Source: Enterovibrio norvegicus DSM 15893 (GTDB taxonomy: Bacteria > Pseudomonadota > Gammaproteobacteria > Enterobacterales > Vibrionaceae). From it: a stretch of DNA of 64,000 nucleotides. The position numbers and the translations under genes were made by a program. The DNA lies in the NCBI RefSeq assembly GCF_900115495.1, contig NZ_FOWR01000005.1, forward strand, positions 1-64,000. The letters are read 5' to 3'. The notes below the pieces were generated by a model. It saw nothing but the letters and a program-made list of their open reading frames with translations, made no database searches and was not told where the DNA came from. Positions 8,286 through 51,898 of the stretch are shown here, piece after piece. How positions within the stretch are numbered: position 1 is the first letter of the stretch; every line of letters starts with the position of its first letter.

Positions 8286-9733
8286 TGACCGTCTCCTTGA
8301 TCGTCATAGACCGAGGTTTGCCATTCTTCTGGTGTATCAACACGGAGTTCAGAGAGTAGTAATCCCGTCGCGTTTAATACTCGGTAGCGAGCGAGAATGC
8401 CTTCGAAGTGCGCATCGAGGTATGAGCGGCGCGCGTCGAAAAGTTCATTTTCAGTGTTGAGTAGGTCAAGCAGAGTGCGTCGACCAATCATGTATTGTTT
8501 CTCGTAAGCCGTAAGTGTTTTCGCCGACGCATCAACATGCTGTTGCAAGAAGGTCGTTTGCTTCTCAGACAGTTCTTTCGCTGTCCATGCAAGACGAGTG
8601 CTTTCATTCAACATGCGGTGTGCATTGTTACGAATATTCTTGGCCTTGTTGATTTGGTACGCAGCGCTGCGTGCTTCTGCAGCGTCTGTACCGCCACTAA
8701 ACAGGTTATATCGCATACGAAGCATGGCTTGGAACTCATCAGTGTCACCAGGCGAGCCATCGAGCTCTTCGCCCCATTCTTGTGACGCTTCAATGGTGAA
8801 GGTCGGGTAGAAATCGCCTTTCGCTTGTTCGTACTGATAACGTGCGGCTTCAACGTCGTTACTTGCCACATGTACAACAGGGTTGTTTTCTTTTGCAGCT
8901 GCGAGGGCATCAACCAGAGATTGTGGAATGAAGAGGGCATCGACTTCTGGTTTTACCAACGCAGCAGGACTTCGTCCGACTACACGTTCAAACTCGGTGG
9001 TTTCATCATCGAGGTTACTGCGTGCCGCTAGAAGGTTAGTGTGGGCCTGAGCCAAGCGGCCTTCAACTTGGGAAAGGTCAGCCGTTGAGCTGATACCTGA
9101 ATCAGTTCGGCGCTTGATGTCATTATGGATGCGTTCGTGGGTTTCGAGGTTTTTCAATGATAAATCTAGAATCGCTTCAGATTTTAATACATTTAGGTAA
9201 ACCTCGGTCACACTTAGCGCGGTGTCCTGCGCTTCAGAAAGAAGTTGAAAGCGCTGCGCTTCAGCTTCTGACTTTGTACGCTTGATATCGTTATAAGTAA
9301 TGGCACCATCCCAAATTAGCTGACGCAAACTGATGCGAACATCTCGAGGTTTGTAGTGACCTTGATTGTTGTCATTGTCATAGTCGGAATAACCGATGCC
9401 AGCTTCTAAATCGACAGAAGGTAAATACCCGCCTTGTGACGCGTCAATTTGCTCTTCCTGACTATTGAACTGGTTGTACGCTTCTCGAATGACTGGATTT
9501 TGAGACAGTGTCTCTGCAACAGCTTGCTCAAGTGACTGGGCAGACGCTGACGGAATGTACACAGAAACAGTTGCTGCGAGCACCATCATGCTCATTTTTG
9601 TTGGTATGCTTTCGGTGAGTAAAGTCATCATTTTAACTTGTTGTTTTGTATGGTTAATTTTTGATTTGAAGTAAGCTACATCAGTGTTCGTCTGCGAGAA
9701 TCGCTGTCTCTTTCGGGTATAGAACGGTTTCAT
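8282..9733 (-). CDS. TolC-family outer-membrane efflux/type I secretion channel
   Basis: Start placed at ATG 9733 because GAGGGAG lies about six bases upstream; the frame is open to 9832, and ATG 9631 is another option but has no good ribosome-binding site. The chosen start gives an unusually long basic N-region (MKPFYTRKRQRF...) before the hydrophobic core and the likely cleavage at ASA-QS. The mature protein has two OEP repeats: SLEQAVAETLSQNPVIREAY, later DALAAAKENNPVVHVASND, and the RRTLLDLLNTENELFDARR signature. It is closest in style to LapE/TolC proteins serving adhesin export. With the OmpA lipoprotein it forms a two-gene operon divergent from the adhesin. Confidence 0.9.
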   Translation of the reverse strand: MKPFYTRKRQRFSQTNTDVAYFKSKINHTKQQVKMMTLLTESIPTKMSMMVLAATVSVYIPSASAQSLEQAVAETLSQNPVIREAYNQFNSQEEQIDASQGGYLPSVDLEAGIGYSDYDNDNNQGHYKPRDVRISLRQLIWDGAITYNDIKRTKSEAEAQRFQLLSEAQDTALSVTEVYLNVLKSEAILDLSLKNLETHERIHNDIKRRTDSGISSTADLSQVEGRLAQAHTNLLAARSNLDDETTEFERVVGRSPAALVKPEVDALFIPQSLVDALAAAKENNPVVHVASNDVEAARYQYEQAKGDFYPTFTIEASQEWGEELDGSPGDTDEFQAMLRMRYNLFSGGTDAAEARSAAYQINKAKNIRNNAHRMLNESTRLAWTAKELSEKQTTFLQQHVDASAKTLTAYEKQYMIGRRTLLDLLNTENELFDARRSYLDAHFEGILARYRVLNATGLLLSELRVDTPEEWQTSVYDDQGDGQ

Positions 9734-9832
9734 GAATGCTCCCTCAAAGCGTCTTGATACTACGTTAAACGATAAATCTGTTCGTTTTTTACTCGGATGA
9801 ACGCAGGAAATGTTGTCTAGAAGACCTGCCAA

Positions 9833-19100: not shown

Positions 19101-20457
19101 AAAACCGGATGTGCCGACGCTTGTATTGAACAATGCGCAGTCTGCGTCTGTTGGCGGTGCAACTGCAGCGATTATTCCGCTTCTTGGTTTAGTCGCTGCA
19201 CTGACCGATGCCGCTGAGACACTGAGTGTTGAAATTCGCGGCATTCCCAATGACATGACGTTCGTAAATGCACAAGGCGTTGCTCTAGGCACGGGGCCTG
19301 TTGGTGGTGTTTTAACGCTCACGCCAACAGAACTTTCGCAGCTTCATGTCATGGGTAACACCGCGCAATCGACGACAGTACAGGTTGTTGCGATTTCATC
19401 GACAGACCAAGAAAGCGCGGCGTCCTCCGCGATTGATCTCAATATCTCTGTCATTGACCCAAGCCAAGGCGCAATTGCTGCACAAGATGCATCAGCAGAA
19501 AACATGGTTGTCTCTGGCGCTGAAGCGGCAAGGTTAGAGGGTGGCGCGAACATTGATACCTTAATCGGTGGTTTGGGCGAAGACATTCTGACTGGGGGGC
19601 AAGGAGACGACACACTATGGGGCGGTTTACTAAACGGTAACGGTGACAACGCGAAAGATCGTTTCGTATGGACGGCGTCTGATCTGGGGTCAAGTTCGGC
19701 GCCATCGACGGACACTGTCATGGATTTTGAGCCTAACATCGATCTCATTGATTTGAGTGCTGCAATGGATGTCGCGCAACTGTTAAGTTTCGATGTGCTC
19801 ACACAATCATTGTCATTGTCCGAATCAAATGGTGATGCACTGTTGAGCATCAGTAATGGCGGAAGTGAGATTCAACATATCGCGTTTTCTGGCGTGAGCC
19901 TTGATGCGTTAGTAGGAGGTGCATCTTCTGGACTCTCTCAATCGGAGTTACTAGAAGCGATGGTGAACAAGGGTAACCTTTACCTTGGCGATACCATTGG
20001 GAGCGCGGCCGACGACAACCTATCAGCGCAAGCTGGAGGACAGAGCCTGTTTGGGCTAGACGGAAATGACACACTGCAAGCGGGTACGGGTAATGACATC
20101 CTCACTGGTGGGGCTGGTAATGACGTATTCACTTGGCTTGAATCATCATTGAGCACTCCCACCAATAGTGACATCGTCACAGATTTTGAGTTGGGTGAAG
20201 ACGTGCTTTATATCAGTGGCTTACTACCAGATTTAGGTGCTAACCCTGACGTGAATGATCTACTTCCTTACATTGACGAAGCCACTCTAGATGCACAAGG
20301 CACTATCAGGTTGGGGATTATCTCGGGTAGCCAGCAGCAAGACATTGAATTGCAACAGATGGACATTACGAGTTCTGGTTTACATCTCGTTGCTGGCGCG
20401 GAAACCAGTGCGATCATTAACGCGTTGATTGAGCAACAAGCCCTCAAAATGGATTAA
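10189..20457 (+). CDS. Giant type I-secreted adhesin with LapA-like retention module and RTX C-terminus
   Basis: 3,422 residues. Residues 30-145 form a retention module (AQLTVIGGQLYVIRDG..., ending ILEGADPTQEFEAPAAGG), with a PAAG site at 142-145 resembling the LapG protease cleavage motif. Cys86 and Cys89 form CxxC inside the module. Residues 170 to about 1440 hold about seven repeats of 130-190 residues, each closing with a DxDGD loop (near 482, 664, 811, 963, 1131, 1292 and 1423). Then come cadherin/VCBS-like Ig repeats with VDGIADTP, VDPVADT, VKGVADEP and VSPVNDAP junctions. RTX nonapeptides (GGLGEDILTGGQGDDTLWGG about 3127-3146; LTGGAGNDVFTW about 3305) and a VLYISGL-like secretion signal end it. 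It would be held in the outer membrane by its N-terminus and released by a LapG-type protease. The partner channel and OmpA gene are divergent upstream. Confidence 0.95.
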   Translation: MDEKVISNVERENEQPNEQTRAPSVAPTFDAQLTVIGGQLYVIRDGVAEPVPFANGVLIGDTIVARPNAAYVVMKNGVPVLVNEPCATCIRINEGEIEAIALAENFDFKESSQAITLLNDDISALQQAILEGADPTQEFEAPAAGGVLSSSISGFAIIEYNFTSVLAEAGFSTSYSPQASTIVDDDDVAVISAAGGEIFGLSIREGDLATLDASDGYPVTVDATLLVASGSLPIDPNSFVFDTLGLSSLLSELASETKSDGNAVTYAISDDGKTLTGSVNGETVLTLSISGEASGRDATLNASITLYKPLDHIADDGTGLVRVVGDAILFSMPIQALDASGNALREAVEMNVAIIDGSNSSANPSSHTHNENELDYISEPIPLNIDINSDALANVRFSATPALISVLESITSDGEPTQYTITDTAITVTLASDPSVTVFSLMLAPQADGSYAYVVTQNAAMDNTDDKDNIVVPVTVDVTDKDGDTVQAAFTVSLEDGNNASGAAAVISGDYGIKETTPGTPEAPAIGAITLAAGSDRLLPDSIFISNLNEESGVPGLLNELNTLSSDGEGLTFAIASGSPSGTIVLNGIKPDGTVVATLTLISSQADDGKGLTVSSNWVLSEPLDHENSATYSANHWVKFIQSIDGQGKAVETFVIDVQLQTRDSDGDLLDAPINVSYSVVDGLTPTIQASDSDVTDPAFNAQPSEITTSLGVVVGSDRIESIVWNVSPSLITQLESLTSNGNALALIPAGMEINGSSDPITLGYTAADGSVITVLTVTLLPETGQYKVVLSEALDQSDTVTLPLGVRVIDVDGDFDTSDFELVVRDGAPPSLNPVDADMFDPKTGSIGQTESFSLGLTEGSDAVESIIFTVPAGLEAALDALTSNGYQTRVEPHPLSSVTDEIRVLIDDASAQNNGATVLTISLDVDANNDPTGSYSVAQLLSIDQPSNTIELPIGVRVKDTDGDIVDGQFTITLNDVDPSVSPSTDVVVSVDEPDLTPEGTETGYPDSSATRFNIGTITDRLLPSSIGIAAASVSTLIASLNANLTSEGQALNFTYDEPSATLKGTVNGTEAIVITFSADQISGGIGLAATVSVNISMPIDHVEDTSLTGLVDIDGDQIQIKIPVQVKDTDGDWLATPVDVRVDIIDGEPPVISSAPALTVEESDINANGSGSNANRAGTTPGGTGTDGDTARGKLVVDSGSDVVTDYALDVDLFAANNTITSHGIAVTLSEPVQSGDSKVYTGYAGTRPVFTVTLSSQGIYTFTLTGALDHSVQGKDTVSVQLPIRVTDADGDVSEAKNILVNVVDDVPFSLETDGVGVGGGSLVTEEGASSSRVTILPSRNRGADDAVIKSVTINGEQHELVQGVNNRFDVTEGVGGQALGTLVIQSSGNVQFIANPDIDHLGTTENRIEESFSYEILDGDGDIVVGTTQIVVVDNEPQLIVVNTSGIEDQGRDLDPNDENVLNPENGIEVSMTVDVGDSDQGEHVDHVLITLPNDAHGTFYANGTALPLSVDQVSSGQVRLDGALFSPDAQNELWTLQNVTFVPDQDYSAANGIPSFTVTGFVEDNQGNQRQLADQTFTITVDGIADTPQWNDTDTVLFYSIEEDSDGATLNLVADLQDADSSESLNYVVTLQSGEGSLLLNGQTLSPVNGKYEISAVDINNIVVKPNAHFSGDITLSVVAQSKESSPFVSGQQTADSQARTVTVAVDPVADTTTLKVSRANGLEDTAISLSPHISLTDSADVDGSEALYVWISDIPEGATLLLADGSEVTDINGVYEIAYTEVPGLTFLPPPEANGNFSINVRGVVKDTITITNAAGVASSVTSISETASKVLNIAVKGVADEPVITADTGNVWTPIIENGIETGIETTIKEDGSVSLSFQIKSGEDGKALAGDNSETLTTLVTNIPPGVKLYDNNQQEINLVYAGVDAQGEPQYQAKVDGLEDVELVPPLGSTEDITLDVIIVVTEDDGDTLTVSKAVTVHIEPSIDASDYTLGSQGNEDANIPINWRPSTDQGFTDKNESITAITFNMSATAIAAGYTLTIQGESAPLSFVNGKVVLTSAQVSALNSGSNVLMQAPDNSDADRDLGLSVELTVQQTDVDSSVIDSKVITGDLDVVIRAVVEDGSIALLNGSDTAVTAVSDNGTGMISLSASNQRLAFVTYKGINTDGSSDEVIDSVVISFVKDAAGSEFDPPDQAFFDNFFIEGGINNGDGSWTVPKSGLAQLEISTSTPLSEPVFIKVVAEVQDQGDNNEGDASAIDEQAPVVLTLNFTGSTDNTQEAGAVTLVDVQNITGIEDTNVDLGTQLNGRIAIDSADAADDELSMIIKAGDLPANVSVTGMEFNYETSEYVAKVTVGSGGEYDLSSIGLGLPTHFAGDFVVPVKWVTTDTVSGHTKETDDSFTVVIAPEVDGVKVSVNVLETDGLGADKQPVSDPADSVPISGQALEDGIVKLSFTTVLDDPDTDIKQGVESVTQIVLSVDSTMGQFVDENGLNGAQSITVTEAELSSIYFKPTENYSGPVNVTVKTTVTDTAQNDDAGLPDATSTRVVTNQVSFNVVAVHDPVDFIGNTSPIQGDEDATGGIRLTGLEAKLNDLDGSERIVSVKLTGLPDDFQVSTLGSHLVQNSGGGEWTISVPANSTTIDFDDIVVIPPNNFSGTFNVGLVVYTDEATLSSPEAHSTSVDIQVNPIGDGIDTDITMSVEGAEDETITLPLDIQVIDKGPSYSGGSSAISENPAETIKIVVTNVPDSATLSLPSDVAPGSSAVKQPDGSWVIIANQTALSSLLFTPGDANELNWDGQLSVSIRAVDNGVEAESTLWVNQTIDVTVSPVNDAPELTVPATALTVDEDTPLLIESIRINDVDANETSGHSITVEISATEGVLSIPASTDTTGITITGEGTANLKLAGPLDAINALLGESGGGGILYTGGSNFAGEETLTVSVNDNGNTGSGGALSDSSTITVNVTPKPDVPTLVLNNAQSASVGGATAAIIPLLGLVAALTDAAETLSVEIRGIPNDMTFVNAQGVALGTGPVGGVLTLTPTELSQLHVMGNTAQSTTVQVVAISSTDQESAASSAIDLNISVIDPSQGAIAAQDASAENMVVSGAEAARLEGGANIDTLIGGLGEDILTGGQGDDTLWGGLLNGNGDNAKDRFVWTASDLGSSSAPSTDTVMDFEPNIDLIDLSAAMDVAQLLSFDVLTQSLSLSESNGDALLSISNGGSEIQHIAFSGVSLDALVGGASSGLSQSELLEAMVNKGNLYLGDTIGSAADDNLSAQAGGQSLFGLDGNDTLQAGTGNDILTGGAGNDVFTWLESSLSTPTNSDIVTDFELGEDVLYISGLLPDLGANPDVNDLLPYIDEATLDAQGTIRLGIISGSQQQDIELQQMDITSSGLHLVAGAETSAIINALIEQQALKMD

Positions 20458-39292: not shown

Positions 39293-40012
39293 CTATTGTC
39301 CCAACGCCAAATACCGTCTTTCTGGCCTACCTACGCTGCCGTAATTCACCTGCGCTTCCAGTTCTTGCGCGCTCACCATGTATTCCAGATAGCGTCGTGC
39401 GGTGGTGCGGCTTGCGCCGATCAATGTACCCACTTCTTCTGCGTTTAATGATTCATCAGCATCGCTGAATACGGCGCGAATTTTATCGAGGGTGATGACA
39501 TCGATGCCTTTTGGCAGCCGTGGATGTGATGACGTCGTCTGTGGCTCTTGTTGATGTGCTGACGTGTTTGTTGCGCGTTGTGGCAGCAGGGTGTCGACAT
39601 CGGTTTGCGCGAGGGATTCCATCGCTTTTAGTTTGTCTAAATGCGCTGAATATTGGGCTAGCACTTCTTGAAGGCGTTCAAATACCAAGGGTTTGAGAAT
39701 GTAGTAAAACACGCCACTGCGAAGGGCTTCCCTGAGCGTATCGACTTCTTTGGCCGCAGTAATCAATATGACATCTGTGGCGCAATTGTTGGCACGCAGT
39801 TTTCTTAGTAGATCGAGCCCAGTACCTTTTGGGAAATGGTTATCGAGCAGAATTAACTCCGGTTTAAAAACATCCACGAGATCTTCTGCATCTTCAAGCG
39901 TATGGGCGATACCAACCAGTTCAAACCCGTCAATACGTTCTAAAAAGCGTTTTTGAATTTCTGCAATTTGATGGTCATCTTCAGCAATGACGACGCGAAT
40001 GTTTTGGCTCAT
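39293..40012 (-). CDS. DcuR/CitB-family response regulator
   Basis: Start at ATG 40012 (MSQNIRVVIAEDD), with a purine-rich GGAAGAAG upstream; the frame is open 18 codons further. 239 residues. Receiver domain has acidic pair Asp12/Asp13, phospho-acceptor Asp57 (LLDNHFPKGTGLDLL) and Lys107 (LKPL). The C-terminal domain (LNAEEVGTLIGASRTTARRYLEYMV) is the helix-turn-helix of the CitB/DcuR/MalR group. It pairs with the sensor kinase gene immediately upstream and should regulate the divergent tct operon. Control of tricarboxylate or C4-acid uptake is inferred from family and position. Confidence 0.9.
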   Translation of the reverse strand: MSQNIRVVIAEDDHQIAEIQKRFLERIDGFELVGIAHTLEDAEDLVDVFKPELILLDNHFPKGTGLDLLRKLRANNCATDVILITAAKEVDTLREALRSGVFYYILKPLVFERLQEVLAQYSAHLDKLKAMESLAQTDVDTLLPQRATNTSAHQQEPQTTSSHPRLPKGIDVITLDKIRAVFSDADESLNAEEVGTLIGASRTTARRYLEYMVSAQELEAQVNYGSVGRPERRYLALGQ

Positions 40013-40124
40013 AAATACGGCTTCTTCCTTGGTTTCGATAGGCAGCATTACAACGTAATCAATCATATGCCTTTCTGTTTGTCTCTTTATCCCTGTCTAT
40101 TTTTATCGCTGTCTGTCTTTAATG

Positions 40125-41729
40125 CTATCTGTCTTTAGGGATATAGACGGTAAAGCGACTTCCTGCTTTGTCTCCAGGTTCTAACATAATGGTGCCACCC
40201 AGCTTTTGAAGCAATTTAGTGACTAAGTGAAGGCCGAATCCATGACCTTCACCTTGTTTCGATGTAACACCTTTGCGGAATATGTTTTCGTGCTGTTCTT
40301 CGGGAACACCTGCGCCTTGATCTTCAATTTCGAAAATAAGGTCATTGCCTAAATCCGTCATTGAGAGCTTTACTTCGAATTTTTGGTTCTTCAAGGTTGC
40401 TTCGAGGGCGTTATCAATCAAGTTGCCAAGAATACTCACCAACTCTTCGCGAGGAATACGATCTGGGATCGCTTTCATACTGCTCTCAGGGTCAATATCG
40501 AGGTGCAACCCTAGTTCTTTGGCACGGTTGTATTTTCCTAATAAACAGCCTGCAAGAATCGGGTCGGGTACCGCTTCCACCAGCAGTTGAATCAAGGCTT
40601 GGTGGCTCAATGTTTCTTGCCCTATAAGCGCGAGGGCTTCTTCGGTTGCACCGATTTGAATAAGACCCGCGATGGTATGCAGCTTGTTAGAATACTCGTG
40701 AGATTGGCTACGCAATGTGTCCGCGTATTTCTGGATTTGAGTTAAACGGCGGCTAACCAAATCAAGTTCGTCTTTTCGTCTGAAGCTCGATACAACCCCC
40801 GTGATTTCATTATCTTGATGCATCGGGAGACGGTTAACGATCAAATTCCTATCTTGTAACCATATTTCTTTATCAAACTGGGGTTTTCCAGAAAGCATCA
40901 CGTTCATTAAACGGCTATCGGGCAAGATTTCTTCAATGGGTTTTCCGGTGAGTTGGGTATTTGCATCTAGGCCCAACGTTTCAATAGCGGCGCGATTAAA
41001 GGTCGTGATATTGCCTTGGTTGTTTACCGCAATGATCCCTTCACGAATGGATTCCAGTGTGGCATTTCGTTCTTGGAATAGTTGCCCGATCTGTTCAGGC
41101 TCTAAGCCAAAAATGGCTTTTTTAAAGTGAGAGGCAAACCAGAGCCCGGTGAGCACACTCAACCCAAAACTTAATGCGATAACCAAATACAGCGTGTTTC
41201 GATATCGATCGATAATCTCTTCGACTGTGTCGAGCATGAAGCCCACGGAAATGATCCCAACAACGTTTTCATTGTTGGAATCGAAAATTGGGGCCTTGCC
41301 TCGGACGGACGCCCCTAAGCTTCCTGTCGCTTTTTGAATATACGGCTTGCCATAGAGAAGGGCGGGCTCGTTGTAGTCGCCATCATCGTCGTACATGGGT
41401 TTCCCAACGCGCTTCCAAGAGGGGTGAGCGAGACGAATACCGTTTCTGTCTCCGATCACAACGAAACGTGCGTCATTGATATTGGCCAGTTCAATCGTCA
41501 ACGGTTGAAGCAATTCGCTGTCGCGGTTTTCGACGGCTTCAATCACTTCAGGAATGGAGGCGATGGTCTTGGCAACATGAAGTGCGCGCTGTCCAATCTG
41601 TTCATCAAGGGAGTGACTGAGGTATGCCAAGGCAAAAAAACCGATCAATCCGGTTTGTAGTAACGCCATCATGCCGAGGATCAGCACCATGCGGGTTTTC
41701 AATTTAAACGAGCGAAGCGAAAGCAACAT
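40125..41729 (-). CDS. DcuS/CitA-family sensor histidine kinase
   Basis: I prefer ATG 41729 because AAGGAT lies upstream of it; ATG 41741 adds four residues. About 534 residues. Membrane spans at about 14-38 and 180-201 enclose a periplasmic PAS/sCache ligand domain (HVAKTIASIPEV, FVVIGDRNGIRLAHP, GKAPIFDSNNENVVGIISVGF), the hallmark of CitA/DcuS. A cytoplasmic PAS domain, the LRSQSHEYSNKLHTIAGL phosphorylation motif (His344) and a HATPase domain with NLIDNALEA (Asn440) follow. It likely binds a di- or tricarboxylate in the periplasm and phosphorylates the adjacent regulator. Confidence 0.92.
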   Translation of the reverse strand: MLLSLRSFKLKTRMVLILGMMALLQTGLIGFFALAYLSHSLDEQIGQRALHVAKTIASIPEVIEAVENRDSELLQPLTIELANINDARFVVIGDRNGIRLAHPSWKRVGKPMYDDDGDYNEPALLYGKPYIQKATGSLGASVRGKAPIFDSNNENVVGIISVGFMLDTVEEIIDRYRNTLYLVIALSFGLSVLTGLWFASHFKKAIFGLEPEQIGQLFQERNATLESIREGIIAVNNQGNITTFNRAAIETLGLDANTQLTGKPIEEILPDSRLMNVMLSGKPQFDKEIWLQDRNLIVNRLPMHQDNEITGVVSSFRRKDELDLVSRRLTQIQKYADTLRSQSHEYSNKLHTIAGLIQIGATEEALALIGQETLSHQALIQLLVEAVPDPILAGCLLGKYNRAKELGLHLDIDPESSMKAIPDRIPREELVSILGNLIDNALEATLKNQKFEVKLSMTDLGNDLIFEIEDQGAGVPEEQHENIFRKGVTSKQGEGHGFGLHLVTKLLQKLGGTIMLEPGDKAGSRFTVYIPKDR

Positions 41730-41970
41730 ATGCTGATACATCCTTATATGTGTGGCTGACTGTACGCGTTATTTCGTGATGCGCGTCGTCAGGTTCCCAT
41801 TTTTCAGCACTGGGTCACGTCTATGAACAAAATGAACTTAACGTTTTTTAAACACTAAAAAAACATTAAATACAGAAGCTTTCCAACACAAGTATGGAGA
41901 AATAGTTTGAAGGGGTAGGTCAACAAAATAAATTCGTCCTAAGGACAGAACGACACGAGGATATACACCT
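41730..41970. promoter_or_regulatory. Divergent control region between sensor kinase and tctC
   Basis: About 240 bases. AT-rich runs (TTTTTTAAACACTAAAAAAA near 41840) resemble the A/T-rich sites bound by CitB/DcuR regulators, and GTCCTAAGGAC lies near 41936. CACGAGGATA before ATG 41971 is the tctC ribosome-binding site. The likely target of the adjacent two-component system; specific sites are not proven. Confidence 0.5.
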
Positions 41971-42954
41971 ATGATTTCGAATCTATTCACCAAAAAACGT
42001 TCATTCGTTGCCGCAATTGCGCTTACCTCTGCGTTGACTGCAGGGTTAGCATCGGCTGCTGTAGAAGAAGTACACTTTCTCATCCCTGGTGGTGCAGGTG
42101 GTGGCTGGGATGGCACTGCTCGCGGTACCGGTGAAGCTTTATCAAAATCTGGCTTAGTGGAAACGGTCTCTTACGAAAACATGTCTGGCGGCGGCGGCGG
42201 TAAAGCGATCGCGCATTTAATTGAAGTTGCTGAGCAGTCAGAAAACACCTTGATGGTGAACTCTACACCTATTGTCATTCGCTCTCTTTCTAAAGTGTTC
42301 CCCCAATCTTTTCGCGATTTAACACCTATTGCTGCCACGATCGGTGACTATGCGGCGTTCGTTGTGCCGAAAGATTCTAAATACACCAGCTTTAAAGAAA
42401 TCGTTGCAGACTACAAAGAGAATCCACGATCAATTGCTGTTGCTGGGGGCTCTTCTCGCGGCGGCATGGACCACCTCGTTGCGGCGATGGCATTTAAAGC
42501 CGCAGGCGGTGATCCAAAACGTGTGAAATACGTGGCGTACGATGCGGGCGGTAAAGCCATGGCAGGGATGCTTTCGGGCGAAACCCAAGTGCTTTCGACT
42601 GGCTTCAGTGAAGCCCTTGCGCTAAAAAACGCTGGCGAAGTACGCATTCTAGCTGTAACCAGCGATGAGCGTTCTGCTGCGGCACCGGATGTGCCAACCC
42701 TGAAAGAGCAGGGTTATGACGCGAGTTTCGTTAACTGGCGTGGCTTCTTCGGTGCGCCTGGCCTTTCTGATGCACAAGCAGATGAATACGCACAAACGCT
42801 TGAGAAAATGTACGCAACCGATGAGTGGGTAGAAGTGCGTGACCGTAACGGTTGGACTGAAATCTTCAAACCACGTGCAGAGTTCGTCACCTTCCTTGAA
42901 GGACAAGAACAAGAAGTGGGTAGTTTGATGAAGGAACTTGGCTTCCTACGTTAA
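41971..42954 (+). CDS. tctC: Tripartite tricarboxylate transporter substrate-binding protein TctC
   Basis: 327 residues. A signal peptide ends at ASA-AV. The mature N-terminus EEVHFLIPGGAGGGWDGTARGTGEAL is the standard TctC/Bug-family start, and ISVAGGSSRGGMDHLVAAM-like wording near 150-170 forms the carboxylate site. It captures a carboxylate in the periplasm for the TctAB permease. The Bug family also binds non-citrate ligands, so citrate is not proven. It is the first gene of the operon and is separated from tctB by a terminator-like stem, which should raise its level over the permease. Confidence 0.95.
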   Translation: MISNLFTKKRSFVAAIALTSALTAGLASAAVEEVHFLIPGGAGGGWDGTARGTGEALSKSGLVETVSYENMSGGGGGKAIAHLIEVAEQSENTLMVNSTPIVIRSLSKVFPQSFRDLTPIAATIGDYAAFVVPKDSKYTSFKEIVADYKENPRSIAVAGGSSRGGMDHLVAAMAFKAAGGDPKRVKYVAYDAGGKAMAGMLSGETQVLSTGFSEALALKNAGEVRILAVTSDERSAAAPDVPTLKEQGYDASFVNWRGFFGAPGLSDAQADEYAQTLEKMYATDEWVEVRDRNGWTEIFKPRAEFVTFLEGQEQEVGSLMKELGFLR

Positions 42955-42965
42955 TCATGAAAAAC

Positions 42966-43004
42966 ACGCCGAGCTGCTAATAAGCACTCGGCGTTCTTAT
43001 TTTT
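42966..43004 (+). terminator. Attenuating terminator between tctC and tctB
   Basis: ACGCCGAG, a one-base bulge, TGC, loop, GCA, CTCGGCGT, then TCTTATTTTT. It lies inside an evident operon, so partial termination is expected. Confidence 0.85.
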
Positions 43005-43044
43005 GACGGGCTTGCTCGTTTGTTGTTGTATCAAGGAGTGTCAG

Positions 43045-43518
43045 ATGGTTGTCACTAAAGACCATATCGGTGGTCTCGTCTTTCTCTGTCTTTCAGTGGC
43101 CTATGGTTTTTACGCGCGTGAAATCCCTATGTTTCCCGGCGATGAGTATGAACCGTTTAACGCCCAAACGTTGCCCATCTTCCTATCTTGGTTGGGCGGA
43201 ATTCTAGGTTTTCTTATGTTGGTAACGGCGCGTCGCGACGTTGCAAGCAAACTCTCTGTGGCCGGGCTTGATTTTCTGCTGGTCGCGAAACTTCTCGTTC
43301 TGATCATGATTTTTGCTTTCGCCCTTGAGTGGGTGGGCTTTATGTTGTCGACGATTCTGTTTTTGGTGGGCGGATATTGGATCCTTGGTGAACGCCGTCC
43401 AAAAATGCTGTTCATTGCATCCGTGCCTTTTGCTGTCGGCATCTGGTTTATTCTTGCGAAGCTGTTGGATATCTATCTCGCACCAGGTCGCTTCTTTACA
43501 CAAGTTTTAGGAGGGTAA
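43045..43518 (+). CDS. tctB: Tripartite tricarboxylate transporter small membrane subunit TctB
   Basis: Start at ATG 43045 with AAGGAG six to seven bases upstream; the frame is open 14 codons earlier without a site. 157 residues with four membrane spans (LVFLCLSVAYGFYAREIP, LPIFLSWLGGILGFLML, LLVAKLLVLIMIFAFALEW, MLFIASVPFAVGIWFI). The layout fits TctB, the poorly conserved small subunit. The tctA start follows four bases after the stop. Confidence 0.92.
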   Translation: MVVTKDHIGGLVFLCLSVAYGFYAREIPMFPGDEYEPFNAQTLPIFLSWLGGILGFLMLVTARRDVASKLSVAGLDFLLVAKLLVLIMIFAFALEWVGFMLSTILFLVGGYWILGERRPKMLFIASVPFAVGIWFILAKLLDIYLAPGRFFTQVLGG

Positions 43519-43522
43519 GACG

Positions 43523-45073
43523 ATGTGGGAAGGAATCTCAACCGGCTTAGGCACTGCCTTAATGCCGTTCAACCTCATGATGGTCGTCGTCGGCTGTTTC
43601 GCTGGCACCTTCATTGGCATGCTGCCGGGCCTTGGCCCTATTTCTGCGGTTGCGTTAATGATCCCGATTACCTACGGCCTTGATCCTGCGTCTGGCATCA
43701 TCTTGATGGCGGGTGTGTATTACGGTGCGGTATTTGGTGGTTCAACGTCTTCTATCCTGATCAACGCGCCGGGTTGTGCAAGTACGGTTGTTACCGCATT
43801 TGATGGCTACCCAATGGCGCAGCAACGCCAAGCAGGTAAAGCCCTTGCGCTGGCAGCGTACTCGTCGTTCACTGGCGGCACGATTGGCGCAATCATTTTG
43901 CTTTTCGCGGCGCCTGCACTGGCATCGGTGTCACTCAGTTTCCAGTCTTCTGATTACTTCGCACTGATGATCCTCGGTTTGACTGCAGTGTCAGCGTTTG
44001 CGGGTAAAGGCCAAGTGCTGAAAGCCATGGCAATGACCGTATTTGGTTTGATGATCGCCACCGTAGGGACAGACGCAATTACCGGTGCGCCACGCTTCAC
44101 CTTTAACAATATCGATTTGGTGGATGGCATCAGTTTCTTATTGCTCGCGATGGCGACGTTTGCATTGGCAGAAGTTGTCACCACAGTGATGAAAGGGCAG
44201 CACAAAGAGAAAGAAGCGGACATGGACATGGCGGCGCTCGGCAGCATGAAACTGTCAAAAGAGGAAGTGAAAGAAGTGGCTCCGACCGTGGCGCGCTCTT
44301 CCATTTTCGGCTTTATCGTCGGTGTTTTGCCGGGGGCAGGTGCGACGATTGCGTCTTTCCTTGCTTATGGGCTTGAACGTAACCTTGCACCAAAACGTTT
44401 GAAAGAGAAATTCGGTAAAGGCGCACTGCGCGGATTGGCAGCGCCAGAGTCTGCGAATAATGCGGCGTCTACAGGCTCATTTGTACCCTTGCTGACATTG
44501 GGTATTCCTGGGTCGGGGACAACGGCGATCATGCTGGGTGCGTTGATTGCCTATGGTATTCAGCCCGGCCCGCGTTTGTTTATTGATAATCCTGATGTGT
44601 TTTGGTCGGTCATCATCTCTATGTACTTCGGTAACTTAGTGTTGTTGATCCTGAACCTTCCACTGATTCCGTACATTTCGCGTTTGTTGGCCATTCCGCG
44701 CCCCATCTTGATTCCGTTGATTTTGTTTTTCTCCATCACCGGTGTGTACTTGGTGAGTTTCAACACTTTCGATATCAATATGATGGTGTTAATTACCGTG
44801 GTGGCGATATTCCTTAAACTGCTCGATTTCCCGATGGCACCGATGTTACTCGGCTTCATTTTGGGCGGGATTATGGAAAACAACCTGAGTCGCGCACTGA
44901 TCATCTCTGACGGCAGCTTGAGCTTCCTGTGGGATCGTCCGTTAACGCTGACCATCATGTGTATTTCGATATTTGTGTTGTTCTTGCCACTGATTCGACG
45001 TGTGCTCGACAAAATGGGGGTCGGCATCAAACTGCAGCCGAATAAAGCACAAGTCGATCGTAATGACGGCTAG
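43523..45073 (+). CDS. tctA: Tripartite tricarboxylate transporter large membrane subunit TctA
   Basis: 516 residues and about 12 membrane segments. GTFIGMLPGLGPISAVALMIP is the conserved TctA signature, with GSTSSILINAPGCASTVVTAFDGYPMAQ and a repeat-like second half (GVLPGAGATIASFLAY, then GSFVPLLTLGIPGSGTTAIMLGAL). It is the ion-coupled channel subunit of the carrier. TTTAGGAGG precedes the start. Only eight bases separate it from the CoA-transferase gene. Confidence 0.96.
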   Translation: MWEGISTGLGTALMPFNLMMVVVGCFAGTFIGMLPGLGPISAVALMIPITYGLDPASGIILMAGVYYGAVFGGSTSSILINAPGCASTVVTAFDGYPMAQQRQAGKALALAAYSSFTGGTIGAIILLFAAPALASVSLSFQSSDYFALMILGLTAVSAFAGKGQVLKAMAMTVFGLMIATVGTDAITGAPRFTFNNIDLVDGISFLLLAMATFALAEVVTTVMKGQHKEKEADMDMAALGSMKLSKEEVKEVAPTVARSSIFGFIVGVLPGAGATIASFLAYGLERNLAPKRLKEKFGKGALRGLAAPESANNAASTGSFVPLLTLGIPGSGTTAIMLGALIAYGIQPGPRLFIDNPDVFWSVIISMYFGNLVLLILNLPLIPYISRLLAIPRPILIPLILFFSITGVYLVSFNTFDINMMVLITVVAIFLKLLDFPMAPMLLGFILGGIMENNLSRALIISDGSLSFLWDRPLTLTIMCISIFVLFLPLIRRVLDKMGVGIKLQPNKAQVDRNDG

Positions 45074-45081
45074 GGGGGCGC

Positions 45082-46284
45082 ATGCACGATGCATTGTCAT
45101 CCTTTAGGGTGTTGGATTTAACCAACGTACTGGCAGGCCCATTCGCCTGCCATCAGTTGGCGCACTTGGGTGCAGAAGTGATAAAAGTGGAGGTCCCCCA
45201 TAGTGGGGACCTTGCGCGTCAATTGGGTGCCGATGCGGATTTAAACCGCGAGAAAATGGGCATTTCCTTTCTGGCGCAAAACTCGGGTAAACGCTCCATT
45301 ACCGTCAACCTCAAACACCCTGACGGCAAAGCCGTGCTCAAAAAGCTGGTTGAATCTGCTGATGTGTTAGTGGAGAACTTCCGGCCGGGTGTCATGGCGC
45401 GCTTGGGGCTCGACTATGACGTGTTGAAAGCGGTAAATCCCAAGCTGATTTACTGCGCCATTTCTGGTTACGGTGCTGATGGCCCCATGAACAATCTGCC
45501 TGCCTATGATCAAATTATTCAGGGCATGTCGGGCGTGATGTCGATAACCGGCGCGCCTGATAATGCGCCGTACCGTGTTGGTTATCCCATTGCAGACACC
45601 ATTGGTGGCCTGACTGCCGCATTTGCGATTTCTTCTGCGCTCGCGGGACGTGCTCACACGGGCAAGGGCTGCTTCATTGATGTGTCCATGTTGGAATCAA
45701 CACTCGCCACCATGGGGTGGGCGGTATCGAATTTCCTTGTCGCAGGTCGTGAACCGCAACCCATGGGCAATGACAATGTGACGGCCAGTCCCTCTGGTGC
45801 GTTCAATACCGGTGATGGCCTGATCAATATCGCCGCCAACAAGCAGGAGCAGTTTGACGCCATTTGTGATTTGTTAGGGCGGGCTGAACTGAAAACTGAC
45901 CCTCGCTTTAGCGAACGACAAGCCAGACTGAAACATCGCGATGTGCTGACAGAGATTCTTGAAGATGCGTTTTCCTGTGATTCAGCTGAAGTGTGGGAGC
46001 AAAAATTGAATGCCATTGGCGTGCCTGCGGGGCGTGTGCTGTCGGTGCCTCAGGCATTGAGTTTAGACCAAGTAAAACAACGCGACTTTGAAGGCACATT
46101 CGATGATGTCGAAGGCGTAGGAAGAGATGTTCATATCGTCAGAACCGGTTTTCTTGTGGATGGACAACGCCCTAAAGTGGCATCGCCGCCACCCCAATTA
46201 GGTGAACACAGCGCTGATATTCTCTCTGAGCTCGGGTTTAGCGATGACGACATTAAAACGTTTCGAGCAGAGGGCGCAGTATGA
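45082..46284 (+). CDS. Class III CoA-transferase (CaiB/BaiF family)
   Basis: 400 residues. The N-terminus RVLDLTNVLAGPFACHQLAHLGAEVIKVE is the class III CoA-transferase signature. Catalytic Asp171 lies in GYPIADTIGG, matching Asp169 of formyl-CoA transferase. It moves CoA from a donor acyl-CoA to a carboxylic acid acceptor. In this operon, next to a tricarboxylate importer and overlapping a citryl-CoA-lyase-like gene by four bases (ATGA), the acceptor is probably the imported tricarboxylate. Substrate is inferred from context only. The start has a G-rich ribosome-binding site. Confidence 0.92.
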   Translation: MHDALSSFRVLDLTNVLAGPFACHQLAHLGAEVIKVEVPHSGDLARQLGADADLNREKMGISFLAQNSGKRSITVNLKHPDGKAVLKKLVESADVLVENFRPGVMARLGLDYDVLKAVNPKLIYCAISGYGADGPMNNLPAYDQIIQGMSGVMSITGAPDNAPYRVGYPIADTIGGLTAAFAISSALAGRAHTGKGCFIDVSMLESTLATMGWAVSNFLVAGREPQPMGNDNVTASPSGAFNTGDGLINIAANKQEQFDAICDLLGRAELKTDPRFSERQARLKHRDVLTEILEDAFSCDSAEVWEQKLNAIGVPAGRVLSVPQALSLDQVKQRDFEGTFDDVEGVGRDVHIVRTGFLVDGQRPKVASPPPQLGEHSADILSELGFSDDDIKTFRAEGAV

Positions 46285-47126
46285 GTATTCGACGGCCGAC
46301 TAACGGCCCAGAAAAAGCGGTTGCCGATTGGTGGCGCACAGACATTATCGATATGACGCCGGGGGAGATTGGCTATTACGGGTATCCGATAGAAGATCTC
46401 ATTGGCAACGTCAGCTTTACCCAAATGATTTGGTTGATGACGCAAGGTTCTCTGCCTTCGCCAGAAAAAGCGAAATTGCTCGATGCCGCGTTAATGTCTG
46501 CCGTTGATCATGGCCCACAAGCGCCAAGTATTGCGATTGCGCGCATGGCAGCAACCTGTGGCGTTGGTTTGAACAATGCCATGGCGTCTGCGGTGAATGT
46601 GTTGGGCGATGTGCATGGTGGCGCGGGCGAACAGGCAATGGCCTTGTATCAAATGATTGATGACATTGTGCAAAACGACGGTGTGGATGTTGTCGTTGCT
46701 ACGCAAAAAGGGCTTGAGAAACAGCGCGAGCTGTTCGGTAAGTTCATTCCCGGTTTTGGCCACCGTTTCCATCCTGTCGATCCAAGAGCACCGCGTTTAA
46801 TGGCGGTGGTAGAAGGCGCGAAAACGGATGGTGAGGTAGAAGGGCGTTTTTTGGCGATAGCTCAACAAGTCGAATTGCAACTTGAGCAGGAGAAAGGGCA
46901 GAAAATCCCCATGAACATCGACGGCGCTACCGCCGTCATATACGCCGAACTGGGTGTAGCACCTGAACTTGCGAGAGGGCTGTTTTGTTTGTCTCGCTCC
47001 GTCGGCATACTGGCTCACGCATGGGAGCAGACGCAACAGGGCGGTAGAAACAAAGGCCCAATCCCTCGAGACTTACTGTGGACGTATGACGGTCCTGCGA
47101 AGCGCTCGGTGCCTGATTCAGATTAG
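46281..47126 (+). CDS. Citrate-synthase-fold citryl-CoA-lyase-like protein
   Basis: 281 residues, shorter than citrate synthase (about 380-430) because the N-terminal part is reduced. Citrate-synthase catalytic positions remain: His112 in VHGGAGEQA, His161 in GFGHRFHPVDPRAP and Asp214 in MNIDGATA. Short proteins of this type are annotated citryl-CoA lyase and are thought to run the reaction toward cleavage. Overlapping the CoA-transferase by four bases, it would split the CoA ester of the imported acid into an acyl-CoA and an oxo acid (acetyl-CoA and oxaloacetate if the substrate is citrate). Reaction direction is inference. Confidence 0.88.
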   Translation: MSIRRPTNGPEKAVADWWRTDIIDMTPGEIGYYGYPIEDLIGNVSFTQMIWLMTQGSLPSPEKAKLLDAALMSAVDHGPQAPSIAIARMAATCGVGLNNAMASAVNVLGDVHGGAGEQAMALYQMIDDIVQNDGVDVVVATQKGLEKQRELFGKFIPGFGHRFHPVDPRAPRLMAVVEGAKTDGEVEGRFLAIAQQVELQLEQEKGQKIPMNIDGATAVIYAELGVAPELARGLFCLSRSVGILAHAWEQTQQGGRNKGPIPRDLLWTYDGPAKRSVPDSD

Positions 47127-47870: not shown

Positions 47871-48398
47871 CGGTGTCTGGTCGTCCATGTGAATGGCTGA
47901 ATATTGTCCCCTAATACGCCATCGTTAACCGTCTTTCTGATTTTCATTGAGGCGCAGCAGTACCGACATTACTGCTGCGTCTATCCAGTTGAGAACCTTC
48001 GTGAACACGCATTTCTCGGTGATTTGGACACAACAACGGTAAAAATAGTAATTATCCCTGCAAATCTTTTGCCATGCGTACTGTTACCCCTGGTAAGTTT
48101 TAGTGCTAATGCTTGCCTCTGAAAATACTCTCCTATCAGTTTCCTGTCAGATATACTCGCAATAACGCCATATCCTCACATTAATCATTACTATTAACTA
48201 TATTATTAAAAACAACAGGTTGTTTTTATTTCGCCTTAATAGTTCGCATTCACCTATTTGATAATCCAATGCTTGGTATTCATCCTTTCGATTGAACAGT
48301 GAATGCTGTCAAACATAACCTTTTGGTAGCTCAGCGATAGACTGAGGCAAAGGCTAGGAAAACTATACTCACTGGACTAAAAGCAAAGGAGATTGCTA
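47871..48398. other. Intergenic region upstream of the DASS transporter
   Basis: About 530 bases. It contains a strong hairpin at 47953-47979 and an AT-rich part at 48180-48240. No convincing gene; the small frame at 47904 lacks a ribosome-binding site. It should contain the promoter of the DASS operon. Confidence 0.5.
47953..47979. terminator. Strong 10-bp hairpin, terminator-like
   Basis: CGCAGCAGTA, loop CCGACAT, TACTGCTGCG. No T-run follows, so it may be a structured RNA element or a weak terminator of the upstream gene. Confidence 0.55.
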
Positions 48399-49865
48399 GT
48401 GGTAAGCATTGTGAGAGACCTGAGCTCCAAAAGTAAAACAGAGAAAATAATGTATTACCTCGGCCTACCATTGGCCATGGTTGTACTCATGATTTTCTAT
48501 TCCATACCAACACCTGACGGCATTACGTTCGAAGGTAAAATGTCCCTGGGTATTTTTAGCTTTGCGCTAATCCTTTGGGTATCAGAATCACTGCCCAACT
48601 ATGCGACCTCAATGATTTCAATCGCCTTACTATCCATTCTTGGTGGGTGGGCCGAGAAGAATGCGTTAGGGACCATGGGCTACGGCGTGATTTGGCTAAT
48701 GATCTCAGCCTTCATCATTACATCGGGCATGGAAAAGAGCGGATTGGCTAAACGTATTGCGCTAGCGATCATCACTCGCTTTGGTAAAACATGGAAGTCG
48801 ATGTTGATGTCGTTGATGGCTGCAAACTTTACCATCGCTTTTATTGTGCCATCCACAACGGCGCGTGCCGCCATGTTGCTACCAATCGTTCTTCTTATTG
48901 CCAAAGCATTCAGCGTTGAAAAGGGAAATAAAAACCTTGGCAAGTTGCTGGCCATTCAAGGCCTGCAAGCCAACAATATTTCCACGTCAGCCATTGTGAC
49001 AGCCACAGCACCTCAGATTCTTGCCATTGGTTTGATGAAAGAGCTAACCGGCTCGTCAGTGTCGTGGGGGGAATGGTTCATTGCGTCAGCACCTATCGCC
49101 ATCCTTACACTGATTGCATCATTCTTTATCGGTATTACGCTATTTAAACCGTCAGGTTCGGCGAAATCAGGCGGCGAAGAGATACAAGAAATCAATCGAC
49201 AATATCAGGAGCTGGGTTCTGTATCGTCAAATGAAAAGAAAGCCGCGTCCATCTTCATTCTCACCATCTGTTTATGGGCCACTGATAAATGGCACATGGA
49301 CCTGTTTGGTTTTCAGATTAGCTTAGTGATGGTTGCGGTTATTTCTGCAGCGATATTCTTTATGCCTTATGTCGGCATTCTTTCTTGGAAAGAGGCCAAA
49401 ATACCCTGGAACTTGATGGTGTTTGCCGCCGGCGCTTACGCCGTTGGTGTGTCATTGAGCGAAACCGGTGTTGCGTCATGGGCGTTGGGCAGTATCTTTG
49501 ACCACCTTGGTGTGAAAGACATGAACTTCACCACTCTCTATGGTGTGGTTATCGCGATATCCAGCTTCAGTCATTTTGTCTTCACCAGTAAAACGGTTCG
49601 GACCATTATCCTTATTCCCACCCTTATCGGTCTTGCAGAAAGTGCAGGGGTTCCGCCTCTGATGTTGGCGCTACCTGCCGCATTCACGATTGCAGATACC
49701 ATCACGCTTCCTCCACACAGTAAAGCAAACTTGGTGTATTACAGCACAGGCTATTTCTCGGTAAATAACCAGTTGTTATATGGCGTTTTAACCTTGATGG
49801 CGAAGTGGTGCTTCATGTTTGGCGCGTCGTTCACATGGTTCGCATATCTCGGCATTACACCTTAA
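48399..49865 (+). CDS. DASS/SLC13-family sodium:anion symporter
   Basis: Start at GTG 48399, seven bases after AAAGGAG (48385-48391). 488 residues, about 11 membrane spans. PSTTARAAMLLPI stands where DASS proteins have the SNT sodium- and substrate-binding motif, and LPPHSKANLVYYSTG sits in the second inverted half. Members import dicarboxylates, citrate, sulfate or sulfonates. The altered STT motif and the unusual second-half wording make the substrate uncertain. It is the first gene of a unit with an anchored periplasmic protein and a phosphoglycerate-mutase-like enzyme. Confidence 0.9.
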   Translation: MVSIVRDLSSKSKTEKIMYYLGLPLAMVVLMIFYSIPTPDGITFEGKMSLGIFSFALILWVSESLPNYATSMISIALLSILGGWAEKNALGTMGYGVIWLMISAFIITSGMEKSGLAKRIALAIITRFGKTWKSMLMSLMAANFTIAFIVPSTTARAAMLLPIVLLIAKAFSVEKGNKNLGKLLAIQGLQANNISTSAIVTATAPQILAIGLMKELTGSSVSWGEWFIASAPIAILTLIASFFIGITLFKPSGSAKSGGEEIQEINRQYQELGSVSSNEKKAASIFILTICLWATDKWHMDLFGFQISLVMVAVISAAIFFMPYVGILSWKEAKIPWNLMVFAAGAYAVGVSLSETGVASWALGSIFDHLGVKDMNFTTLYGVVIAISSFSHFVFTSKTVRTIILIPTLIGLAESAGVPPLMLALPAAFTIADTITLPPHSKANLVYYSTGYFSVNNQLLYGVLTLMAKWCFMFGASFTWFAYLGITP

Positions 49866-49874
49866 GGAGGCTAC

Positions 49875-50654
49875 ATGATGTTTAAGCCGTTATTTTCATC
49901 ACGCGCAGTGCTTACACTGTTATTTCCACTCGCTATCGTGTTGTCGCCAACCCTTGCTGCTAAAGAATTTGGAGACATTCAGCAATACCACGAGAACATC
50001 CAACCGTCAGGTTCGGAAGGCATTATTAATACCTCCGTCACTGCGACCACCAATGCCGAGGGTGTTGTTTACTTGCCTGCTTATGAAAAGGGCGAGTTAG
50101 CAAACTACGAAGTATTGTCGGGAACATTGATTGGCATGCCTGAGCGCATCGATATTCATGGCCGTGAGGCTTATCGATACCGTTTTGCGTCAAGTGATAG
50201 CTTGGTGACGTTGCAGCAAACGTTTCAAGTGAAAAAACTCTACAAAGAAAAGAAAGCGAAGCTCAAGTACAGCCATCCTGCTGGCGTTACGCGTGTTTCA
50301 TACACCTTTACCAATACATCACCCTCAACGATTGATGATTTTTCGACCCAGCTTTCTGTGCCAAAAGGCACCGAGCTTTATGGTGTTGTAACACCGGAAT
50401 GGTCGAAGAAAAAGAAAACATTCACCATCAGTAAACTGGATGATTGGAAAGTGGTAACGGTGAATCGAAGCGCGCTGACTGCTGGACAGGACGTTGAAAC
50501 AAAAGTGCGCTTATACCGTCCAGCACCAAATATCAAATGGGTGCTTTGGACGTTCGTCATCCTAATTTCCGGCGCGTTGCTGTGGAAACGAAGAGATGTA
50601 CTTGTCGACGAAAAAGAAGCCGTTGAATCAGCGCCTATTGAGGAGCAAAAATGA
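49875..50654 (+). CDS. Exported, C-terminally membrane-anchored protein of unknown function
   Basis: 259 residues, AAGGAGG six bases upstream of ATG. A signal peptide (ending TLA-AK) and a C-terminal span (IKWVLWTFVILISGALLW, about 220-237) bracket a beta-rich periplasmic domain. Sequence such as GVTRVSYTFTNTSPSTIDDFSTQLSVP looks like an immunoglobulin-like fold. The last 20 residues are acidic and cytoplasmic. No family was recognised. It lies between the DASS carrier and the mutase-like gene and overlaps the latter by four bases, so it should act with them, perhaps as a periplasmic accessory of the carrier. Confidence 0.82.
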   Translation: MMFKPLFSSRAVLTLLFPLAIVLSPTLAAKEFGDIQQYHENIQPSGSEGIINTSVTATTNAEGVVYLPAYEKGELANYEVLSGTLIGMPERIDIHGREAYRYRFASSDSLVTLQQTFQVKKLYKEKKAKLKYSHPAGVTRVSYTFTNTSPSTIDDFSTQLSVPKGTELYGVVTPEWSKKKKTFTISKLDDWKVVTVNRSALTAGQDVETKVRLYRPAPNIKWVLWTFVILISGALLWKRRDVLVDEKEAVESAPIEEQK

Positions 50655-51898
50655 GTAAACAAGCCCTATTAATTATTGCTGACGGTATGGGGGATAACCC
50701 GATACCTGACCTAAACGGTCTTACCCCGCTCGAGTATGCGTTAACACCAAACTTAACTGCGTTGGCGAAACAGGGGTTATTCGGGAACGTGCACCCAGTA
50801 CAACCGGGCGTTCCTGTGGGTACGGATGTAGGCCATTTAGCGATTTTTGGTTACGACCCATATGATGTTTACACAGGGCGTGGTCCTATTGAAGCATACG
50901 GTGCAGGCATCGAGTTGTTACCCACTGACATTGCTTTTCGCGGTAACTTTGCAACGGTTGATGATGAATTCACCGTGCTTGACCGTCGAGCTGGGCGCAT
51001 CAACGTGGGCACACATGAACTTGCAGAGGCGCTGGATGGGATTGTGCTTTCTAATGGGACTAAGGTGATTGTTCGTCCGCTGAGTGCCCACCGTGTTGCT
51101 GTCGTTTTGCGCGGTGAGAACCTCTCTGAACATGTGAGAACGACAGATCCTGGTACAGCGAAAGAAGGTGAGACCGTCCAAAAGAGTATTGCATTGAATG
51201 AAGAAAGTGATGCGATACACACAGCCGACGCCATTAATGAACTGACAGAGAAAATGTTTTCTGTCCTGAGTTTGCATCCAGTCAATGCCGAACGTTCGTT
51301 ACAAGGTATGCCGCCTGCAAATATGATTTTGCTCCGTGGTATTGGGCGAGAAATACAGGCACCAAAGATCACAACAACGCTGGGTATTCGTGGTGCGTGT
51401 ATCGCGGGTGATCGTACTGTGCTCGGAATTGCCAGAATGGCGGGCTTTGACGTGTATCACCGCGACAGTTTTACCGCAGGCCATGATACGGACTTTATCG
51501 CTAAAGCAGACCTTGCGATTGAACAATTGAAGAGCGGTTATGATTGGGTCGTGCTGCACATCAAATCACCTGATTTGGCGGGGCATGATTGCCAACCCAT
51601 GATTAAAGTATCATCTGCGATTAAGCTTGATATGATGCTAGGGCATATACTCAGACACATTGATTTGAATGAATGTTTTGTTGGCTATACCAGCGATCAT
51701 TCCACCCCTTGCATGAGACGGGATCATTCTGGTGATCCTGTGCCGACATTTTTTGCAGGCGGGAATGTGAGAAGCCTGCCGCTTGAAAACTTCGGTGAAA
51801 AGTACGTGACACATGGCAGTTTGAATAACCTCACGGCGCGGGATTTTTTCCGCATACAAATGGATCACTTAGGGGTCGTTGCTAAGCTCGGTGCTTAG
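50651..51898 (+). CDS. Archaeal-type cofactor-independent phosphoglycerate mutase-like enzyme (ApgM family)
   Basis: 415 residues, alkaline-phosphatase superfamily. ADGMGD (10-15) gives metal ligand Asp11; VPVGTDVGHLAIFGYDP (54-70) holds the nucleophile position, here Thr58 where characterised phosphoglycerate mutases have Ser; IKSPDLAGHD and TSDHSTPC bring the remaining metal ligands. The family was formerly called phosphonopyruvate-decarboxylase-related. Its start overlaps the preceding gene by four bases. A housekeeping glycolytic role is unlikely in this transporter operon; a phospho-acid or phosphonate substrate is possible. The Thr may mark a different subfamily. Confidence 0.85.
   Translation: MSKQALLIIADGMGDNPIPDLNGLTPLEYALTPNLTALAKQGLFGNVHPVQPGVPVGTDVGHLAIFGYDPYDVYTGRGPIEAYGAGIELLPTDIAFRGNFATVDDEFTVLDRRAGRINVGTHELAEALDGIVLSNGTKVIVRPLSAHRVAVVLRGENLSEHVRTTDPGTAKEGETVQKSIALNEESDAIHTADAINELTEKMFSVLSLHPVNAERSLQGMPPANMILLRGIGREIQAPKITTTLGIRGACIAGDRTVLGIARMAGFDVYHRDSFTAGHDTDFIAKADLAIEQLKSGYDWVVLHIKSPDLAGHDCQPMIKVSSAIKLDMMLGHILRHIDLNECFVGYTSDHSTPCMRRDHSGDPVPTFFAGGNVRSLPLENFGEKYVTHGSLNNLTARDFFRIQMDHLGVVAKLGA

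Follow-up and report, generated by a model that had tools for sequence, protein, structure and literature searches.

The locus at positions 39293..47126 of a 64,000-nucleotide stretch of the Enterovibrio norvegicus DSM 15893 genome (5.45 Mb in 99 contigs; the whole stretch is hereafter the window) raises the question of how an imported tricarboxylate might be cleaved by a class III coenzyme A (CoA) transferase and a short citryl-CoA lyase, encoded by caiB and ccl directly behind the genes of a tripartite tricarboxylate transporter (TTT). The original prediction saw here a complete module for sensing, importing, activating and cleaving such an acid. All seven of its genes were confirmed, their open reading frames (ORFs) being open throughout the coordinates given below and each matching the expected Pfam family. 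Response regulator and sensor kinase are read leftward and, across a divergent region of 229 bases, tctC-tctB-tctA-caiB-ccl rightward. The answer that we favour from sequence comparison, at a probability of about 0.6, is that this operon would provide for CitAB-type sensing of citrate, its import by TctCBA, CoA transfer to it and cleavage of the resulting citryl-CoA.

Of greatest use is the finding that caiB and ccl form a strict pair. Among 329 Vibrionaceae genomes (E-value thresholds of 1e-40 for ccl, 1e-120 for caiB and 1e-60 for tctC) ccl occurs in 15 and the caiB orthologue in 15, and these are the identical 15. Each gene is likewise found in 62 of 200 Burkholderiaceae genomes (1e-60 for ccl, 1e-115 for caiB), again the identical set; neither comparison is corrected for relatedness. 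A first, loose caiB search of the latter family gave up to 46 class III candidates per genome among the matches listed, with nine scored. Fifty-eight of the 62 Burkholderiaceae pairs lie less than 200 bases apart, three are separated by 1.5-1.7 kb holding a sugar/MFS-type transporter gene and one is split between contigs. The pair was also followed in 80 ccl loci, the best of 138 stretches encoding a relative; counts from this set lean towards close relatives and the genome searches are the fairer measure. Genes in these loci were located with a codon-based caller and with tblastn and, since the caller missed ccl in a number of them, tblastn supplies the counts. In 77 of the 80 the transferase gene stands immediately upstream of ccl, a total that takes in L024, where it is split, and L078, where a contig end cuts it; in L071 a single gene lies between the two. 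In a ccl tree the Vibrionaceae rows fall into two groups. Of 200 bootstrap trees 13% recover a single origin for them, and the tree settles on neither one origin nor two.

The lyase gene (46281..47126, + strand) encodes 281 residues, in which the match to the Citrate_synt profile begins at position 162. Against the NCBIfam citryl-CoA lyase model NF004864 the protein scores 456.9 bits, the curated cut-off being 261, and all six relatives scanned also exceed that cut-off (445-502 bits). Given this score and the presence of caiB and ccl in identical genome sets, chance does not account for what is seen at the locus. The best match among solved structures is a citryl-CoA lyase, 6hxp (1.9e-37), and the closest named relative is from Enterovibrio sp. 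ZSDZ42 (98%). His112, His161 and Asp214, picked out beforehand as catalytic positions, are indeed present and, together with H77, R162, R169 and R239, do not vary in any of the 87 aligned rows, whereas R263 is conserved in 83 of them. In the alignment 6hxp has the same letters at H77, H112, H161, R169, D214, R239 and R263. We take the active-site positions to be those used by citrate synthase for oxaloacetate binding and Claisen catalysis, and their retention would lead one to expect oxaloacetate or another dicarboxylic 2-oxo acid as the product. The predicted structure (mean pLDDT 71.3, pTM 0.70) is of low confidence at residues 77-112 and 241-265 and is unusable around the active site.

The transferase gene (45082..46284, + strand), which we propose encodes a citrate CoA-transferase, matches CoA_transf_3 at full length (residues 5-377, 5e-120; 401.4 bits against a cut-off of 23.3). 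Its catalytic aspartate, originally placed at residue 171, is residue 172, which is invariant in 84 of 84 aligned rows and aligned to an Asp in 4hl6. Its closest matches among solved structures, at 225-255 bits, are YfdE (4hl6), a CAIB/BAIF protein (4ed9), a formyl-CoA transferase (10uh) and succinate-hydroxymethylglutarate CoA-transferase (9br6). The protein falls below the cut-offs of all seven named NCBIfam families listed, of succinate--glutarate, oxalate, formyl-CoA, mesaconate and carnitine types, the best score being 312.4 against 750 bits. Within the analysed genome CaiB has other matches only in a single tandem protein (L118:1084-3594, - strand), whose 836 residues comprise two class III halves, a length presumably like that of the dimethylsulphoniopropionate enzyme DddD.

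Is the locus, then, a single module? Sensing, import, transfer and cleavage remain its best reading, but the idea of one complete module does not survive comparison with relatives. Orthologues of tctC are present in 231 of the 329 Vibrionaceae genomes as against 15 for caiB-ccl. Of 14 same-genus genomes with tctC, eight carry caiB-ccl at the tct site, while the other six (G023, G024, G025, G027, G028 and G030) lack the pair there. In these six the order of regulator, kinase and tctCBA is unchanged. Five of them share the AlkA-type neighbour, and in four the small gene found after ccl in the window comes directly after tctA; in G027 the contig stops just past tctA. One of the six, G025, has caiB-ccl at another site, where a TAXI-TRAP transporter and an SMP-30-type gene accompany it. 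The sensing and import genes are thus seen to be the common part and caiB-ccl a gained, or often lost, addition. The pair is a cassette of two genes, placed here next to an uptake locus that is itself widespread.

The company kept by the cassette varies. In 21 of the 80 loci a TctC at least 62% identical is present, and the genes are arranged in one of three ways: tctCBA-caiB-ccl, divergent, or caiB-ccl-tctCBA. In a Desulfuromonadales metagenome-assembled genome (L044) the last of these is flanked by a CitAB-like kinase and regulator, 47 and 48% identical. Elsewhere TAXI-TRAP, DASS-like, MFS-type or lone receptor genes are found with the pair. With L101 added to the 80, a census of genes up to 5 kb from ccl in these 81 loci shows IclR-type regulators in 40 and a fuconolactonase-like amidohydrolase in ten (L016, L040, L043, L050, L057, L070, L075, L076, L079 and L081). 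The score of the amidohydrolase is 73 bits, where the cut-off for fuconolactonase is 400. An SMP-30-type gene occurs in six of the 81, one of them (L009) a weak match, and adjoins ccl in L064, L071, L101, L120, L122 and L123; the last three are among five further Burkholderiaceae regions that were fetched, the genes of the other two being partly scanned. The two lactonase-like families are unrelated, occur in different lineages and are never both found in one of the 81 loci. There may be more than one substrate for the cassette. In L034 a radical SAM gene is next downstream of ccl.

As to the substrate of the present operon, the kinase offers a clue. Its gene (40125..41741, - strand) encodes sCache_3_2, PAS, SPOB_a and HATPase_c domains. 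Of the DcuS/CitA type to which it had been assigned, the CitA half fits the sensor domain far better than the DcuS half: solved CitA domains are matched at 6.5e-25 (1p0z) and 8.5e-25 (2v9a and 2j80), in contrast to 1.8e-13 for DcuS (3by8), and 8bgb, an entry titled just Histidine kinase, is matched at 6.5e-30. R103, H106, S141, R147 and K149 align with the citrate site of 1p0z, in which we take the corresponding residues to bind citrate. DcuS-type sensing of C4-dicarboxylates is not our first choice since the sensor domain is so much closer to the CitA structures. The neighbouring gene (39293..40066, - strand) encodes a CitB/DpiA-type response regulator, with Response_reg and DpiA-like HTH_64 domains and, from motif position, a probable phospho-acceptor at Asp75; it scores below the NCBIfam cut-offs for both DpiA (160.5 bits against 264) and DcuR (145.2 against 262). 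In the divergent promoter two TGAAC repeats 9 bases apart (41824..41841, + strand) and an ACATTAA block are kept with a few changes in a 13-row alignment across two genera, and together form a candidate site for the regulator. The repeat pattern matches once in the window against 0.12 expected, but since the pattern came from the alignment itself this lends no independent support.

Citrate is favoured as the substrate, with moderate confidence, because the sensor site is of CitA type and Ccl has the full set of residues for binding oxaloacetate/citrate. The earlier proposal of citrate or a relative is thereby narrowed: a tricarboxylate is still the most plausible substrate, citrate is preferred among them, and analogues are suggested for other lineages. 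On this basis we infer a pathway that is conditional in its substrate, CoA donor, direction and regulation. The CitAB-type two-component system would sense citrate and activate the divergent operon, and TctCBA would import the acid. The class III CoA-transferase would then move CoA from an acyl-CoA, either acetyl-CoA or succinyl-CoA, to citrate, and the free citryl-CoA so formed would be cleaved by the short lyase to acetyl-CoA and oxaloacetate. With acetyl-CoA as donor, citrate would yield acetate and oxaloacetate and acetyl-CoA would be regenerated at each turn, the net reaction being that of citrate lyase; acetyl-CoA would take the role of the acetylated carrier, with no acyl carrier protein or prosthetic group. 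Succinyl-CoA as donor would instead give a net gain of acetyl-CoA.

Oxaloacetate could pass to pyruvate through an oxaloacetate decarboxylase encoded elsewhere in the genome, where genes for an OadA-type alpha and a Na+-transporting OadB-type beta subunit are recognised by their domains. We also count as support an RraA-type gene near the pair in two of the 81 loci, since the RraA family includes oxaloacetate decarboxylases; this relative scores 124 bits, below the cut-off of 179 for the oxaloacetate decarboxylase/aldolase family, and may have a different reaction. The absence of classical citrate lyase genes, claimed originally for the locus, extends for CitF to the whole genome, in which PF04223 has no match at E 0.001, an E. 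coli control being over the cut-off; CitD, CitE, CitX and CitG were not searched for genome-wide. CitF occurs in 50 of the 329 Vibrionaceae genomes, none of them among the 15 with ccl. The chance of zero overlap is 0.08, uncorrected for relatedness, and mutual exclusion of ccl and CitF is not counted as evidence.

Several observations weigh against the citrate pathway. Two loci (L030 and L034) have ccl without an adjacent transferase, and their genomes hold no orthologue elsewhere at E 1e-100, a threshold that the split copy in the genome of L024 also fails. When the whole kinase is considered, NCBIfam favours DcuS/MalK (426.2 bits, cut-off 520) over DpiB (362.4 bits, cut-off 656), with neither cut-off reached. 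Other acids are bound by members of the TctC family, and the lactonase-like neighbours in other lineages suggest other substrates there. One Vibrio TTT receptor is reported to bind alginate oligosaccharides but not citrate, and to share less than 35% similarity with the TTT receptors described before it (PMC13390454). Uptake of alginate oligosaccharides was considered for the present locus and rejected, given that low similarity and the fact that neither gene behind tctA is an alginate gene.

The lactonase-like neighbours bear on the idea that caiB-ccl acts on a citrate analogue, such as 2-methylcitrate, hydroxycitrate, homocitrate, aconitate after hydration or citramalate, by identical chemistry, CoA transfer followed by retro-Claisen cleavage, with other products. 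An enoyl-CoA hydratase-type gene near the pair in two of the 81 loci would also fit. However, the Enterovibrio/Grimontia loci L004-L007 showed no amidohydrolase, SMP-30-type or hydratase-type gene close to caiB-ccl, and the sensor site is CitA-like; we consider an analogue unlikely to be the substrate here. Citramalyl-CoA, for which the 2-oxo product would be pyruvate, is disfavoured by the full set of dicarboxylate-binding arginines, given the residue roles that we assume.

The composite nature of the locus invites a different view, in which the cassette handles an internally made acid and simply shares the promoter of tctA, uptake and cleavage belonging to separate pathways. The tctCBA genes are indeed found without caiB-ccl, and caiB-ccl with the other kinds of transporter or receptor gene listed above, but similar TctCBA transporters are linked to the pair in as many as three gene orders. 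Furthermore, the 4-base overlap of caiB with ccl and the 8-base gap between tctA and caiB imply co-expression, and separate pathways strike us as very improbable. The lyase might, finally, run synthetically, from acetyl-CoA and oxaloacetate to citryl-CoA or citrate: it has the citrate synthase fold, and Claisen reactions are reversible. Two longer ORFs (438 and 386 residues), weak matches, would by length alone be ordinary citrate synthases and the pair sits in an uptake operon, so that synthesis seems an extremely remote prospect, and uptake followed by cleavage of citrate is the reading that we retain.

The transporter genes are tctC (41971..42954, + strand; Pfam TctC 3.1e-21), for the periplasmic solute receptor, tctB (43045..43518, + strand; TctB 2e-16) and tctA (43523..45073, + strand; TctA 3.6e-154), and all three domains score above the Pfam cut-offs for membership of the TTT family. 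The close spacing first described, gaps of 4-8 bases and a 4-base overlap, holds for tctB-tctA (4 bases), tctA-caiB and caiB-ccl, but tctC and tctB are 90 bases apart. The most likely tctB start is the ATG at 43045, which has AGGAG upstream; an alternative TTG at 43003 leaves 48 bases after tctC. A 98-base stretch in this gap region folds at -29 kcal/mol (z -2.63), and a predicted hairpin (42966..42994, + strand), perhaps an attenuator, might raise expression of tctC over that of tctBA. The hairpin was not called by a terminator scan, and its sequence is not preserved in an alignment with Grimontia. Some relatives of the locus are disrupted, tctC and the kinase being split into overlapping ORFs in L102 (G020), and the kinase, tctA and ccl likewise in L104 (G029), by draft errors or decay.

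Downstream of the operon, positions 48393-51898 of the window encode a DASS-type anion symporter, a 259-residue protein and an archaeal-type phosphoglycerate mutase (apgM). The same trio stands at this place in G017 (L103), whereas no DASS match was found in L004-L007. Far upstream, a 3422-residue ORF (10189-20457) with RTX calcium-binding repeats and a cadherin-like domain resembles a large secreted adhesin, and an outer membrane efflux protein gene (8282-9832) lies near it.

How does the proposed pathway compare with established ones? Citrate is known to be cleaved by CitDEF, by ATP-citrate lyase and by the citryl-CoA synthetase and citryl-CoA lyase (CCS/CCL) of the reductive tricarboxylic acid cycle. 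The last resembles the present case in having a stand-alone short lyase that cleaves free citryl-CoA, as the best match to 6hxp reflects, but there an ATP-dependent synthetase activates citrate, whereas here a CoA-transferase gene stands beside that of the lyase in a setting of uptake and catabolism. A Pfam scan of the operon found no ATP-dependent citryl-CoA synthetase gene within it. With CitDEF the proposed net chemistry is shared if acetyl-CoA is the donor; that enzyme uses a carrier-bound prosthetic group, in contrast to free CoA here, and the protein families are unrelated, with no CitF in the genome. CaiB shares family, full length and catalytic Asp with class III CoA-transferases such as YfdE and the succinate-hydroxymethylglutarate, succinate-glutarate and formyl-CoA enzymes, but forms a separate orthologous group, strictly co-occurring with ccl in the searched genomes and lying under all of the NCBIfam cut-offs. 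Citrate-responsive two-component systems adjoining tctCBA are already known, CitAB and BctDE controlling such uptake (PMC5812351); the present locus differs in the two catabolic genes after tctA. A literature search, with most subscription papers outside it, found no description of a citrate pathway combining a CoA-transferase with a citryl-CoA lyase.

These comparisons lead us to a broader suggestion, offered tentatively and with some doubt. A dedicated class III citrate CoA-transferase and a stand-alone citryl-CoA lyase may together constitute an undescribed, widely shared pathway of citrate cleavage, in effect a citrate lyase in which free acetyl-CoA replaces the covalently attached acyl carrier, without need of ATP or maturation enzymes. 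It could be plugged into different transporters, and might take lactone-forming analogues, for example hydroxycitrate, where a lactonase has been added.

The pathway would also offer a likely role for the transferase, which is present in every one of the 77 genomes that carry ccl out of the 529 searched. Genomes of one genus with and without the pair at a single locus provide a natural comparison. If the citrate pathway is correct, it would represent a further route of citrate cleavage, free of ATP when acetyl-CoA is the donor, and would explain how citrate may be broken in a genome that has citrate sensing and uptake but no CitF.

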